Assembly: GCA_028279645.1 (NCBI GenBank)
Contig: JANQNJ010000012.1
Location: forward strand, 1-51,860
Length of the DNA: 51,860 nucleotides
DNA from: Thermoplasmatota archaeon
GTDB taxonomy: Archaea; Thermoplasmatota; JAKEGO01; JANQNJ01
Direction of reading: 5' to 3'
Shown here: positions 18,757 to 24,870 of the stretch, piece after piece
Position numbering within the stretch: the stretch's first letter is position 1
Layout: every line of letters begins with the position of its first letter
Position numbers and translations under genes: made by a program
The notes under the pieces: model-generated
What the model saw: only the letters and a program-made list of their open reading frames with translations
The model's database searches: none
What the model was told of the DNA's origin: nothing

Positions 18757-19191
18757 ATGCCCAAGAAGAACCAACCACTACGGCTACGACGTGACAACCA
18801 CACAGCATCCACCCTGACCGACCACATCGTCTTCTCACCGAAATACAGAAAACCGGTACTGAAGGGCAAGATCGCTCGAGCCTGCGACGAAGAGATCAGA
18901 CGAATATGCCGAAGATTGAATGTACATGTGATCGACCTCGCCGTGACCGAAGATCATGTTCATTTGTTCATCAGATATCCTCCTAAGCTTTCGCCGAGCG
19001 TGATCGCGCAGAGGGTGAAGGGGGTGTCCAGCAGGAGACTGAGGAGGAGGTTCCCGGAGCTGCGGATGTGGTGTCCGAAGGGGTTGTGGGCGCCGGCGTG
19101 CTATCATGGGAGTGTTGGTCAGGGGGTGGAGGTGGTGAGTGCGTATGTGCGGGCGCAGGATCCGTTGCGGTGGGATACGCGGAAAAGGTAG
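18757..19191 (+). mobile_element. tnpA: IS200/IS605-family Y1 (HUH) transposase TnpA
   Basis: DHIVFSPKYRKPVL, EDHVHLFIRYPP, GLWAPACYHGSVGQGVEVVSAYVRAQ. Confidence 0.8.
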
Positions 19192-19206: not shown

Positions 19207-19230
19207 AGTGCGGGGTGTATACCCCGTACT
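19207..19230. repeat. Hairpin downstream of TnpA (possible IS right-end hairpin)
   Basis: AGTGCGGGGT-gtat-ACCCCGTACT; AGTGCGGGGTAT recurs at 19271. Confidence 0.5.
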
Positions 19231-19363
19231 TGTTCTCGGATAGATCTTGTACTAACAGGCCTTGTAGTTCAGTGCGGGGTATCTTAGATATTGCTTATAT
19301 TAGATGATAGAAGATAATATACTGCTTTGATAGATCAATATAGCTGATATAAGCTGTATTGTG

Positions 19364-19382
19364 ACTCAGGCGGCGAGCGGAT
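19364..19382 (+). repeat. R0: right-end half-site of the cassette repeat opening the array
   Basis: actcaggcggcgagcggat, identical to the right end of R1-R5. Confidence 0.8.
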
Positions 19383-19400
19383 TAAGGAAAGGCGATAGAT

Positions 19401-19862
19401 ATGAACGAGAAAAAGAAGTATCTTTATGGATTACTCTGTTTCATTTCTGCGCTTGTTATTCCGGTTTTAACCTTCATCGTTACTGGATTGTTAATAGAAT
19501 TACTTGGAGACACCGGTTTTGAAGATATGATCTTCTTTGCTGCAATGTTTTCTCTCCATCCGGTTTTAACCTTAATGGGTTTATACATCATTAGAGGAAC
19601 GAACGGAAAACGAAAAAATCTCAATATGTTTCTTACGGTGATTACGTCATTTTACATTCTAACATATTTCCTTTTAATCGCTATGGAAGCCCATTTCATG
19701 GGATTATCCTATGCAACATATTGTTGGCTAAGCATTGTATTCTTAATATTGCAGATCATGATGCTCATCCTACTAATTGAACGAGTTATCTATTGCTTCG
19801 GAAGATATGATCATTATAGATATCCATTGATGAGCGAGCCGCCCCGGCGGGAACAGACTTAA
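19401..19862 (+). CDS. Cassette 1: multi-TM protein, C-terminal tail encoded by repeat R1
   Basis: Several TM segments; ends SEPPRREQT inside R1. Confidence 0.65.
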   Translation: MNEKKKYLYGLLCFISALVIPVLTFIVTGLLIELLGDTGFEDMIFFAAMFSLHPVLTLMGLYIIRGTNGKRKNLNMFLTVITSFYILTYFLLIAMEAHFMGLSYATYCWLSIVFLILQIMMLILLIERVIYCFGRYDHYRYPLMSEPPRREQT

Positions 19863-20059
19863 AGCAACGGTAGCCGACCGTGGATGCCTCGCCCCGAACG
19901 AGCCGTCCTTCGAACAACGAGAAGCCAGGCGAGGAGGGGTTGGGTTGATATGAATACCAGTGCCGCCTTAAACCCAATCCCATGGGAGAGGATATCAACC
20001 TCCTAACGACGCCTCGACCGTTCAGGACGGGGAGGTCGTCACTCAGGCGGCGAGCGGAT
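19834..20059 (+). repeat. R1: full-length cassette repeat, subfamily A
   Basis: gcgagccgccccggcgggaac...actcaggcggcgagcggat. Confidence 0.9.
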
Positions 20060-20073
20060 AAAAATGTGATTTA

Positions 20074-20622
20074 ATGAACTGTCCTAAATGCGGAAAAACT
20101 TCGCGGCATATTGCTTACTATAATCGATACTATTGTTATCAGTGCAATGAATACTTGAGAAATATCCGCTATAGTATCATTATAGTCGTCATATTTATCG
20201 TATTATTGATCTCTTCTTGTACGGTCCTATATTACTGGGCTGTATCATTTTCTGGGCGTCCTCATGACGCCCCGAGAGGTGCATTATGGGCTCAAAAGTT
20301 TTCCAATAACTGGACAGTAAAGGTAACTACATGTTCCCCTCCTGTGAATTTCAAAGATATCTTGTTCAAGTTTTATCCAGTGAACGGATCCTTTGATTAT
20401 TTCTATTATGAATGGGATCCTTATAATAAAACAACAAAAGAATTATCGTTCGAGAGTGAATTCATATCCATTATCGATCAGAATAATGACGGTAACCTGA
20501 GCAGTGGGGACAGAATAATCCTAATTAATGTAGAGAATAATGGCATTTTTAAAAAGGACGACGTGATGGAAATATATTATAAGCCTACAAAAACTACAAT
20601 AACCCGAGTGGTGCTTGAATAG
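20074..20622 (+). CDS. Cassette 2: N-terminal zinc ribbon, TM, extracytoplasmic domain
   Basis: MNCPKCGKTSRHIAYYNRYYCYQCNEYL then TM; matches chromosomal zinc-ribbon module. Confidence 0.65.
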   Translation: MNCPKCGKTSRHIAYYNRYYCYQCNEYLRNIRYSIIIVVIFIVLLISSCTVLYYWAVSFSGRPHDAPRGALWAQKFSNNWTVKVTTCSPPVNFKDILFKFYPVNGSFDYFYYEWDPYNKTTKELSFESEFISIIDQNNDGNLSSGDRIILINVENNGIFKKDDVMEIYYKPTKTTITRVVLE

Positions 20623-20626
20623 CAAA

Positions 20627-20852
20627 GCGAGCCGCCCCGGCGGGAACGATGAATAATTAACGCAAGCCGACCGTGGATGCCTCGCCCCGAACGAGCCGTC
20701 CTTTGAATGACGAAAAACCAGGCGAGGAGGGGTTGGAGCGGAGATGTATAAGCGCCGATCGAGCGAACAATCCCATGGGAGAGGATATCAACGTCCCAAC
20801 GACGCCTCGACCGTTCAGGACGGGGAGGGCGTCACTCAGGCGGCGAGCGGAT
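20627..20852 (+). repeat. R2: full-length cassette repeat, subfamily B
   Basis: Same ends as R1; interior gatgaataattaacgc and ggttggagcggagatgtataagcg. Confidence 0.9.
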
Positions 20853-20868
20853 CTAGGATTGATTTGAT

Positions 20869-21495
20869 ATGAAATTGAATAAGCGAGTACTAATTGGATT
20901 CGTCATCATCAATATCCTGATCATAATCTCTGCATCTTATCTTAGTATGATAAATTCACAACAGGATTCTAATGATCGAATACACATTGAGGGAACCTCC
21001 ATAATTTTGAGTACAAGTGGAGGAACTCCAGGAATTCCCCTCCCAATATCAGTTGATAGTACAACTGTTTCAGATCTAGGTAATTCAACTTTTCTTATAA
21101 GAATCACCATTGGAAACTCCAACTTCTCAAATGAGTATCAATTTCATTACAACGATAACATATCAAATCCTCGATTATTTGTAAACGATTCGGCATATCA
21201 AAGAAAGATTCATTGGTATATGGGAATCGAAGCTGAGACATTCTACAACTTTTCCATTGAGGGAATAGTACAATCCGACAATCCCTCGATTAAGAACATT
21301 ACATTTTTCAACGGTACCAATTCAATAAATGGATGGTTCTTTTATCGGCGGAACTATTGGGATGGAGCCCAAATTGACACATTAGAGAATATTGGAATTG
21401 GATCTAATTACATCAATGGTGTCTGGAACAATGAGATTACCGCAAATGGTTTATCATTTGGAATAATAAGTAAATACAACTATTTTCGGGCGTAG
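20869..21495 (+). CDS. Cassette 3: signal-anchored extracytoplasmic protein
   Basis: N-terminal TM MKLNKRVLIGFVIINILIIISASYL; stop overlaps first base of R3. Confidence 0.65.
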   Translation: MKLNKRVLIGFVIINILIIISASYLSMINSQQDSNDRIHIEGTSIILSTSGGTPGIPLPISVDSTTVSDLGNSTFLIRITIGNSNFSNEYQFHYNDNISNPRLFVNDSAYQRKIHWYMGIEAETFYNFSIEGIVQSDNPSIKNITFFNGTNSINGWFFYRRNYWDGAQIDTLENIGIGSNYINGVWNNEITANGLSFGIISKYNYFRA

Positions 21496-21719
21496 CGAGC
21501 CGCCCCGGCGGGAACGATGAATAATTGACGTAAGCCGACCGTGGATGCCTCGCCCCGAACGAGCCGTCCTATGTGTGCCGCCAAACCAGGCGAGGAGGGG
21601 TTGGAGCGGAGATGTATAAGCGCCGATCGAACGAACAATCCCATGGGAGAGGATATCGTAACCAAGCGACGCCTCGACCGTTCAGGACGAGGAGGGCGTC
21701 ACTCAGGCGGCGAGCGGAT
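21495..21719 (+). repeat. R3: full-length cassette repeat, subfamily B
   Basis: Near-identical to R2 outside the variable loop. Confidence 0.9.
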
Positions 21720-21736
21720 GTAAAGAAGGTGATAAA

Positions 21737-22972
21737 TTGCTAACAAAGCATGGAATATTCCTATCGATATTTCTTATTACCCTTTCAGTCTATTGCACAG
21801 TAACTGTTGATGCTAATCCATATTATTCCTTCGAGAGATCAGTGTTTTCTCAAGATTGCAGAATTGATGCAATTGATGTTTCAACAAATGGCACTCATCT
21901 TGTTTTCGGTAATGTATTGTATTCAACAGCACAGGCAATGGATATACAGAGCGGAGTTATTCGATCCCTTCCTCAGTATGACGATGATATTGATGAAGTA
22001 CAATATTCGAAAATGGGCGACCTTGTTGCGATTAGTAATCATGACACTGTGATGCTCTACCAATCCACAACCTTCGATGAGATTGTGGAGTTTAGATTCA
22101 ACGACACCATTTTTGATATTGAGATATCCAATGATGACCGATTACTCGCAATTGGGCATGGTGACGGTCTTTCAATAATATATCTTGAAAACCTCACGTA
22201 TTGGAACATAACAAATGGTCCTGCCGTATTACGTTTGACCTTCTCATATGATAACCATCGATTAGCCTGCTGGACGTCTGACACTGGCGTGATTAGCTTC
22301 TGGAACACACGGACCTGGGCATTAATTCATAACTTCTCCTTCCAATTTCTAAACATCACTCTAAATTCGATAAAAAATCTAATATTTTCACCTACTCATA
22401 ATCACTTATATCTTTATACATGGCTCAATCCAACAACATTCGAAGATATCCATGAGATTCAAGTCCTAGACACAGCAAACTATTCCGTGATTAGGTCATT
22501 GAGACTCTATGATTGGCCTGTGAAAATGATTGTTACAAAAGATGGAAGTCATTTAATGTATATCGGGTTTAACAAATTCATAATCCAACGACTATATGAT
22601 GGTAAATTGATTCAAAAAGTAACACTTAATCAAGAAATCTTAGATTTTGCGATCTGTAGTGATGAAAAGGACATCTATTTATCTCGATATGTAGGTGAAG
22701 ACAAGAGATACAGTTGTAGAATTGAATTATGGGGCCTAGACTTCGACAAGGATGGATGTCCAAATTCGTTGGATGCTTTTCCTCGCGATTCAAACGAATG
22801 CTCTGATTTAGATGGCGATGGTATCGGGGATAATGCGGATCCTATTCCGAGTTTCAAGTATATACGATCTTGGTGGGAGATTGGAGCCATTACCATGTTC
22901 ATTGGCATATTTTTTGTCTGGAAGCACAAGATGAAAAAGCAAAGTGAGCCGCCCCGGCGAAAGCAGACTTAA
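21737..22972 (+). CDS. Cassette 4: WD40-like beta-propeller, Ca-binding (DxDGDG) repeats, C-terminal TM, repeat-encoded tail
   Basis: TTG start after AAGGTGAT; LDFDKDGCPNSLDAFPRDSNECSDLDGDGIGDNADPIP; TM; ends SEPPRRKQT inside R4. Confidence 0.65.
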   Translation: MLTKHGIFLSIFLITLSVYCTVTVDANPYYSFERSVFSQDCRIDAIDVSTNGTHLVFGNVLYSTAQAMDIQSGVIRSLPQYDDDIDEVQYSKMGDLVAISNHDTVMLYQSTTFDEIVEFRFNDTIFDIEISNDDRLLAIGHGDGLSIIYLENLTYWNITNGPAVLRLTFSYDNHRLACWTSDTGVISFWNTRTWALIHNFSFQFLNITLNSIKNLIFSPTHNHLYLYTWLNPTTFEDIHEIQVLDTANYSVIRSLRLYDWPVKMIVTKDGSHLMYIGFNKFIIQRLYDGKLIQKVTLNQEILDFAICSDEKDIYLSRYVGEDKRYSCRIELWGLDFDKDGCPNSLDAFPRDSNECSDLDGDGIGDNADPIPSFKYIRSWWEIGAITMFIGIFFVWKHKMKKQSEPPRRKQT

Positions 22973-23169
22973 AGCGACGATAGCCGACCGTGGATGCCTC
23001 GCCCCGAACCAGCCGTCCTTTGGGTGTCGAGAAGCCAGGCGAGGAGGGGTTGGGTTGATATACATGGGGACAACGGCTTAAACCCAATCCCATGGGAGAG
23101 GATATCAACCTCCCAACGACGCCTCGACCGTTCAGGACGGGGAGGGCGTCACTCAGGCGGCGAGCGGAT
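22944..23169 (+). repeat. R4: full-length cassette repeat, subfamily A
   Basis: gtgagccgccccggcgaaagcagacttaa...actcaggcggcgagcggat. Confidence 0.9.
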
Positions 23170-23186
23170 TTAAACGGTGACAGAAT

Positions 23187-23848
23187 ATGTTTCCAATGGA
23201 TTCACTGGAAGATAGAGTTCAATCCAAGAAAATTGAAACAGAGCAATTCATAGCACGTGAAGAACTATTAAGGAAGCATAAGTCAAATCTACATAAGAAG
23301 CCACGCCCTAATAGACATCTGATTATAGCTATCGTCATAGCTATCATCTTTATTCATGTCTGATATACTATTACCAATATTCTTATCGTTATAATAGGTC
23401 CAATAAAGAATACAGCATTAATATAGAGACAAATGCTACGAATGAATATACTATCTATGTTCCGGTCGCTCAAATGAATAGTAAAGAAATATCTGATGTC
23501 ATGAAGGATATCAATAAGAAGTCAGTCAAGATGATAAACACGAATTATGGAAAAGCGTTAAGGATTACAACAATTGGAAACTTCTCAATTTCATTATCAA
23601 CTTCAAAATACGAGGACGAAGTTAATATTCTTTCAATGCGGTATTTTAATGAAACCCATCCTAGACGGAAGTTAATGATAAGGATTTATTATAATGGGAC
23701 AGAAGACATCCATTTGTCTATCGAATGCAGATCGGATGTATATGGTTATAGATCATCCAGTGATCATAGGGAATGGTGTGATAGGGTCAAGATTTCTGAA
23801 AACGGATGGCATCATATCGAATTTAGGTCTGAAGGTGGCGGTGACTGA
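23187..23848 (+). pseudogene. Cassette 5: apparent frameshifted single-TM protein
   Basis: ATG 17 nt after R4; MFPMDSLEDRVQSKKIETEQFIAREELLRKHKSNLHKKPRPNRHLIIAIVIAIIFIHV* then +1-type shift into ...IYYYQYSYRYNRSNKEYSINIETNATNEYTIYVPVAQMNSKEISDVMK... Confidence 0.5.
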
Positions 23849-23869
23849 TAATTAATAAATGCTATTAGA

Positions 23870-23947
23870 GCGAGCCGCCCCGGCGAAAACCGACTGAAAA
23901 CAACGGTAGCCGACCGTGGATGCCTCGTACTCAGGCGGCGAGCGGAT
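23870..23947 (+). repeat. R5: cassette repeat with internal deletion (78 bp)
   Basis: gcgagccgccccggcgaaaac...gtggatgcctcg joined to tactcaggcggcgagcggat. Confidence 0.85.
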
Positions 23948-23997
23948 TAAAGCAATCTATAAGTATTATAAGTGATATAGAACCTATAGGTGTTATA

Positions 23998-24180
23998 ATG
24001 GCAACAACAATTGCTATTTCACAAGAGACCAAGGAAACACTTCGTTCTTATGGAGAAAAAGGCGAGAGTTACGAGAAGATCATAAACCGTCTCTTGCACG
24101 ATGCAGCTTGGAAGAAATTGGATGAGCGATGGAACAGAATTCTGGAAACTGAAGAATTTATTCCATTGGATGAATTGTAA
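23998..24180 (+). CDS. Cassette 6a: putative antitoxin
   Basis: MATTIAISQETKETLRSYGEKGESYEKIINRLLHDA, ribbon-helix-helix-like; adjoins RelE-like gene. Confidence 0.65.
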   Translation: MATTIAISQETKETLRSYGEKGESYEKIINRLLHDAAWKKLDERWNRILETEEFIPLDEL

Positions 24181-24455
24181 TGTATTCGGTAACTACATCT
24201 GAAACCTTCAGAAAGCAGTTAAGCAAGTTGGAGACTAAGGATAAGAATCGAATAAGAAAGGGTCTTCAATGCCTCTGTGAGGATCCTATAACACCTAGAT
24301 CCGGTGCGGATATTTTACTGATGGAACGTACTGATCCTCCGAAGTATAGGATTCGGATCGGCAATTTCAGGGTTGTATACAGGATCGAGAAGAAGGTCGT
24401 TAAGATTATTGAAGTATTCCCGAGAGGTCGGGGATATCGAATAATAATACCATAG
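24180..24455 (+). CDS. Cassette 6b: RelE/ParE-family toxin
   Basis: TTSETFRKQLSKLETKDKNRIRKGLQ...YRIRIGNFRVVYRIEKKVVKIIEVFPRGRGYR. Confidence 0.8.
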   Translation: MYSVTTSETFRKQLSKLETKDKNRIRKGLQCLCEDPITPRSGADILLMERTDPPKYRIRIGNFRVVYRIEKKVVKIIEVFPRGRGYRIIIP

Positions 24456-24477
24456 CGAGCCGCCCCGACGAGCGGAT
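24455..24477 (+). repeat. R6: minimal cassette repeat (23 bp)
   Basis: gcgagccgccccgacgagcggat. Confidence 0.7.
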
Positions 24478-24870
24478 AATAGGTGATGAAATCTCCGAAA
24501 AGCATGATCGATTCAACTATTTCGCAACTCCGTATATTCTCGTCATAGTTGGGTTAATATCTCTTATTGACGGGCTAGTCAACTCATCGCTTTCAAAGCT
24601 ATTGCTAGGATTCCTTCTAATTAGTCTTGGTGTAATTGTTTTCTTAATCATGGGAAATGCTGGGAAGACCGAACGGCCCAGACGCTAGCAGAAGTGATCG
24701 AATGGCCGCCTTTCAATAATGATTCAACACAGCCTAAAGGGCACGCCGACGTCGATCGAACAATATTCAAATCCATCACCAATAAACTTAAGTAACGCAA
24801 TATTCCAGGTTTTCTCAAGGGAGGGAGTAAGTACGATACGCCGTTCAACGATCGATCTGGAGGTAGCGGA

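Follow-up and report, generated by a model that had tools for sequence, protein, structure and literature searches.

An integron-like array of gene cassettes linked to an IS200/IS605-type transposase in a Thermoplasmatota archaeon

To our knowledge, integrons are the only described platform on which promoterless gene cassettes are stockpiled in ordered arrays, and all of them operate with one integrase family. The IS200/IS605 family is characterized by strand-specific chemistry on single-stranded DNA. Here we analyse a 51,860-nucleotide stretch of contig JANQNJ010000012.1 from a Thermoplasmatota archaeon (assembly GCA_028279645.1), referred to below as the window, in which a cassette array follows a transposase gene of the IS200/IS605 type. 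The 16S sequence of the window genome gives its highest score with the archaeal model. Other genomes from the same phylum are denoted by G numbers, the window genome being G000; six of them, from several families, carry a head site of the window type. A literature search covering sources other than preprints turned up no account of a system of this kind.

As in integrons (Ghaly et al. 2022, PMC9668308), the cassettes are short ORFs pointing in one direction with one recombination site each, the head site lies by a recombinase gene (here not IntI) and cassettes change there (here by comparison only), the sites fold as single strands, and toxin-antitoxin and acetyltransferase genes are among the cassettes. 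In contrast to integrons, the window system has no IntI (in an assembly that is 82% complete) and no attC core; its type of site is ~200-260 nt long, with cassette-specific arms and the core GTNACTYRGG; the hairpin of its head resembles the one in the elements; the top strand, not the bottom strand, appears structured; and an HUH Y1 enzyme is the candidate recombinase. Because IntI and attC are both missing, the system falls outside the integrons despite its integron-like organisation. Members of the IS200/IS605 family such as IS608 and ISDra2 also have a Y1 HUH TnpA with intact residues and subterminal hairpins, but here tnpA does not appear to be located between two ends of its own, the head takes many unrelated cassettes, and the elements are long and complex; no TnpB was seen beside the window tnpA. 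REP elements and their RAYT enzymes share with this system a stand-alone Y1 enzyme and many non-autonomous hairpin elements, whereas window-type elements bear genes and are lined up in ordered arrays, and the window TnpA reaches only 23.5 bits against the NCBIfam RAYT model (cut-off 80). Finally, CALINs, which are attC clusters without an integrase, recall those of our cassette arrays that have no nearby integrase, although the window elements contain no attC motifs. The features of the window are as follows.

18757-19191, plus strand: tnpA, an IS200/IS605-type Y1 (HUH) transposase of 144 aa (Pfam Y1_Tnp, 8e-29)
19254-19282, plus strand: head-site hairpin motif AACAGGCCTTGTAGTTCAGTGCGGGGTAT, 8-bp stem, matching conserved heads
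19283-19360, plus strand: AT-rich head spacer with AGC/TATA-like motifs, layout conserved in head alignment A5
19361-19367, plus strand: head core GTG^ACTC, with the head to the left of the junction and cassette 1 to the right
19364-19382, plus strand: R0, the 19-bp right module at the 5' end of cassette 1 (exact repeat)
19364-20040, plus strand: cassette 1, membrane-protein ORF (19401-19862) and element R1 (19833-20040)
20041-20833, plus strand: cassette 2, zinc-ribbon/TM ORF (20074-20622) and element R2 (20625-20833)
20834-21700, plus strand: cassette 3, ORF (20869-21495) and element R3 (21494-21700)
21701-23150, plus strand: cassette 4, beta-propeller ORF (21737-22972) and element R4 (22942-23150)
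23151-23928, plus strand: cassette 5, ORF (23474-23848) and R5, an element with a deleted interior (23868-23928)
23929-24478, plus strand: cassette 6, antitoxin-like DUF7557 and ParE toxin ORFs (23998-24180 and 24180-24455) and remnant R6 (24454-24478)

The 19-bp module ACTCAGGCGGCGAGCGGAT, which a first-pass annotation had placed at 19364-19382, is present there and is repeated exactly at 20041, 20834, 21701, 23151 and 23929. Allowing up to two mismatches, these six sites are the only ones in the 2.24-Mb genome, all within the window array, and a reversed-sequence control over the same genome returned no match; the exact pattern was likewise absent from the collections of genome contigs and viral contigs that were searched. 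Copies 2-6 form the right end of each preceding element. Alignment of the elements shows that R1-R4 are full copies (~210 bp plus the module), that R5 lacks the interior and that R6 is a remnant, and it bears out the earlier claim that the homology of R0 and R5 begins exactly at ACTCAGG; the first ORF also starts 18 nt past R0, at 19401, as had been stated. The core reads GTC-ACTC in the full copies, GTG-ACTC at the head and CGT-ACTC in R5. The cassette ORFs have 35-40% GC compared with ~52-55% in their surroundings, and the two genes of cassette 6 match Pfam DUF7557 (1.8e-8) and ParE (8.6e-8). The last two elements (23868-23928 and 24454-24478) show progressive deletion, R5 having retained its left 60 nt, which are rejoined exactly at ACTCAGG.

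R0 had been described as an attI-like half-site preceded by unrelated AT-rich sequence, with the TnpA at 18757-19191 as the nearest recombinase. The position of the enzyme is confirmed, and comparison between genomes strongly supports an attI-like head linked to a Y1 transposase. R0 itself, however, opens cassette 1, and the role of an attI-like site falls to a conserved stretch of ~110 bp on its left side: the supposedly unrelated sequence at 19254-19363 matches conserved heads in G323, G358, G394, G396, G400 and G081. R0 would be better renamed the left end of cassette 1, with 19254-19363 as the head. This ~110-bp head comprises the hairpin, the AT-rich spacer and then GTG^ACTC, and is matched by our head model with 65.5 bits over 19254-19370. 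Aligned heads from G000, G323 and G358 all read AACARGCCTYGTCT..GGRCGRGGTAT, an AT-rich stretch and GTGACTY; the same layout is seen in nine heads, which together with the G081 head represent seven genomes, and GTGACT is invariant across the nine aligned heads. The 8-bp stem is 97% paired on the top strand, by way of many G-T wobbles, and the hairpin loops are GNRA-like. Covariation in the head hairpin alone, which is mostly conserved and shows wobble changes, is not significant relative to shuffled alignments. The AT-rich spacer is a possible cassette promoter.

A protein search finds TnpA with at least 45% identity in 5 of 392 genomes of the phylum (G000, G358, G081, G018 and G323), nearly all others being at ~40% or less, and the tnpA neighbourhoods of G323 and G358 contain arrays of the same design as that in the window. 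A covariance model built from the left 64 nt of the element gives strong matches in three of the 392 genomes (G000, G323 and G358), and a head model, scanned separately, matches strongly only in the same three and more weakly in G081; both models were trained on genomes already found, and diverged arrays without TnpA would escape them. That the three element genomes all lie inside the five TnpA genomes has a chance of ~1e-6 if the two are independent (hypergeometric), a figure that overstates the case because the model was trained on arrays near TnpA. In a scan of the order containing G323 and G358, the element model also matches G399, G400 and G402. BLAST of the element against 99 relatives hit its own genome only, apart from a weak G081 match that led to the other arrays. 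Element-model matches of low score, among them the weak ones in G215 and G216, were treated as chance.

Head, array and clade TnpA occur together in G000, G323 and G358. Moreover, the clade TnpAs of G394, G396 and G400 were found by protein first, and a head lies 0.15-1.3 kb away in each case, while the head on G081:C48 was found by the head model alone, and a C-terminal remnant of tnpA ends ~100 bp before it. These two tests of the linkage are not circular, and the co-occurrence in other genomes that the first-pass annotation had proposed as a check is observed in these four. Altogether, a head lies within ~1.3 kb of a clade Y1 transposase in seven genomes and in both relative orientations (co-directional in G394, divergent in G396 and G400), with tRNA genes between tnpA and head in G394 and G400. 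Arrays tied to another recombinase, which the annotation had named as counter-evidence, were not seen; some heads (G323 C85, C67 and C73; G358 C12) have no TnpA nearby and are flanked by unrelated genes, and a single TnpA may serve several heads. Heads without TnpA on the same stretch of sequence were noted in G323 C85, C67, C73 and C49 and in G358 C12, C67 and C41; some of them look solitary, no element being detected after them. The tRNA genes between tnpA and head (Phe, Phe and Leu in three genomes) are at L051 8858-8944, in L139 and at L136 2358-2444 (reverse complement).

The window TnpA is a complete Y1 transposase with H67-V-H69 and Y130 intact, scores 118.5 bits against NCBIfam transpos_IS200 (cut-off 55), and is the only Y1_Tnp protein in the G000 assembly. 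The profile of its clade matches the IS608 TnpA structure 2a6m (E 6e-27), and the HxH motif and catalytic tyrosine are conserved among the head-linked TnpAs. Every head-linked TnpA that could be placed falls in a single clade of 14 rows (support 98/95), which also includes the TnpAs of G018 and G401, both located at contig ends with no confirmed head; in G018, a hairpin follows the close TnpA and the contig ends there. The tnpA beside the head is frameshifted in G323 (L051 9689-10074) and reduced to a C-terminal remnant in G081 (L157, reverse complement, 333-542), suggesting that arrays outlast the decay of the enzyme gene beside them. A search of viral contigs for the clade TnpA and the head pattern found neither. 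On the basis of the intact active-site residues and the repeated linkage, TnpA is the best current candidate for the enzyme that moves the cassettes, and probably does so. In G081, at least five dispersed, IS-like copies belong to the same TnpA clade and are not tied to heads; these copies (L046, L047, L048, L050 and L052) are ~77-90% identical in DNA over ~400-790 bp, and ATTCACTT lies immediately upstream of tnpA in several of them.

Alternatively, the cassettes might be moved by a tyrosine recombinase, either the host XerA or an IntI encoded in the unassembled part of the genome, with tnpA as a passive neighbour. G000 does encode a XerA-like recombinase, integron integrases are relatives of XerA, the metagenome-assembled genome is 82% complete, and the TnpA-less head on G358:C12 has a tyrosine recombinase at a distance of ~4 kb. 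The only Phage_integrase protein in G000 is, however, an archaeal XerA encoded on another contig, which scores 280 against recomb_XerA_Arch (cut-off 220) and 185 against integrase_gron (cut-off 265). In addition, R1-R4 contain no pair of the attC motifs RYYYAAC ... GTTRRRY, whose count in the array is not above that in shuffled sequence, and tyrosine recombinases are not consistently found beside heads, whereas the clade TnpA is in seven genomes. We regard this explanation as unlikely.

Past the head, the arrays consist of AT-rich ORFs in the same direction between structured elements of ~200-260 nt. Of 40 cassette ORFs, 39 share one direction; their GC content is 0.38, the median cassette measures 704 bp, and there is one site per cassette. 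The genes encode ParE, MazE, PIN, HicAB, Fic and GNAT proteins and many membrane or secreted proteins, and are rich in toxin-antitoxin functions, a spectrum comparable to that of archaeal integron cassettes (PMC9668308). In each array, the ~60 nt that follow a core show complementarity to the sequence immediately preceding that cassette's own element, and these arms vary between cassettes. For the G323 arms (n = 21), the same-cassette duplex has a mean of -42.6 kcal/mol compared with -31.7 kcal/mol for other combinations, a value equalled in 0 of 20000 permutations (p < 5e-5); for G358 (n = 6), the corresponding values are -45.8 and -32.4 kcal/mol, with a p value of 0.0014 that is near the smallest attainable. 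Duplex energies for pairing across the physical cassette junction are no better than for other combinations. In the window, all cassettes have the same arms, which leaves the arm-matching test without power there. DNA folding likewise makes an element together with its own cassette start more stable than with the next start in 17 of 20 cases (p 0.0003). Such matching is expected if a cassette exists alone as a circle or moves as a whole.

The element hairpin beside GATGCCTCGCC covaries, with double changes at seven of seven pairs and a covariation score reached by 0 of 500 shuffles. Arm pairing on the top strand beats that on the bottom strand in 25 of 30 comparisons (p 5e-5), and the top strand gives the more stable folded circle in 16 of 20 (p 0.0015). 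An active site formed on the top strand fits IS200/IS605 chemistry, although an RNA role would yield an equal bias. Indeed, the ~200-nt elements could act as RNA (3' UTR, processing or regulatory structures bracketing ORFs) in arrays that arose by duplication, with the arms as mRNA structures: the favoured strand is the transcript sense, the element structure is complex and covarying, and GNRA-like loops occur in the head hairpins. We nevertheless think an RNA role improbable as the explanation, since Rfam searches of the window and related arrays place no RNA family, including group I and II introns and HEARO, on the elements, transferred cassettes are bounded by the core rather than by gene ends, element-free head sites recur beside TnpA, and the sequence to the right of the core is swapped between sister species.

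Comparisons between genomes show what has moved. A VapB-PIN (VapBC) cassette is common to G358, where it is third in the array, and G400, from another family (75% identity over 772 bp); the homology starts exactly at the core, the neighbours differ, and the preceding elements are unrelated copies. In the sister species G323 and G400, the tnpA/tRNA-Phe/head loci are 87-90% identical up to the core, after which different first cassettes follow, and the first G400 cassette begins with the same sequence as a cassette at another position in the G323 array. The array tails of these two genomes have one cassette in common (82.5% over 1.9 kb). The arrival of new cassettes at the head, which the first-pass annotation had suggested looking for, is thus seen by comparison, in that orthologous heads of sister species bear different first cassettes.

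A further possibility is that the arrays reflect no dedicated platform but tandem, MITE-like, non-autonomous IS200/IS605-type insertions that carry passenger ORFs and have a target in common. An IS200 TnpA is present, IS-like copies of its clade are scattered in G081, and every junction could be the next target. Against this, the head is separate and conserved, tnpA varies in orientation, and tRNA or other genes intervene, so that tnpA and head do not make up a single fixed transposon; the arrays are also strongly clustered and same-direction, and the arms are cassette-specific. We consider this explanation rather improbable. Chance or an assembly artefact is most improbable, for although these are metagenome assemblies with contigs that break at repeats, the same architecture recurs in assemblies from several genera and families, and six exact module copies stand against no control match; the recurrence refutes this reading.

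The cassette unit and its head site are thus well supported, and we hold them to be very probably correct. For the broader reading, in which the locus is an integron-like archaeal cassette platform based on IS200/IS605-type single-strand recombination and not an integron, our rough estimate of the probability is 0.6. A more specific version, which we favour slightly over its negation, is an HUH-enzyme counterpart of the integron, evolved independently of those with tyrosine recombinases, in which a Y1 transposase shuttles folded, single-stranded ORF cassettes between ~200-nt sites and the head, and cassette-specific arms re-form the site within the circle after excision. Each cassette comprises an ACTC/ACTT core, a start arm, an ORF, an end arm, a ~200-nt structured element and a C, and the head beside tnpA (hairpin, AT-rich spacer, GTG^ACTY) is their joining point. 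TnpA may recognise both the head hairpin and the cassette elements through their folded top strands and cut at the ACTY core. The cassette would then be released as a single-stranded circle, with its own arms closing the element hairpin, and inserted at the head, as IS200/IS605 TnpA treats its own ends.

If this is true, an enzyme of a different class drives a second platform, and the stockpiling of cassettes evolved more than once; archaea would gain a gene-capture route, and the single-strand, hairpin-addressed insertion site could be an attractive tool. The system is testable, with head, elements, cut core and enzyme each delimited at single-base resolution. Were the mover not TnpA, the arrays would still constitute a cassette system that is not an integron and that requires a recombinase. 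Were they only tandem non-autonomous insertions, the system would be a variant of the IS200/IS605 family; a new category presupposes a platform. Among minor observations, a head-like hairpin, CCTCGCC..GGCGGGGCATG, lies at an array tail (L135 2315, G323:C19) next to the gene for ornithine carbamoyltransferase, and a solitary hairpin at L133 4652 resembles it.
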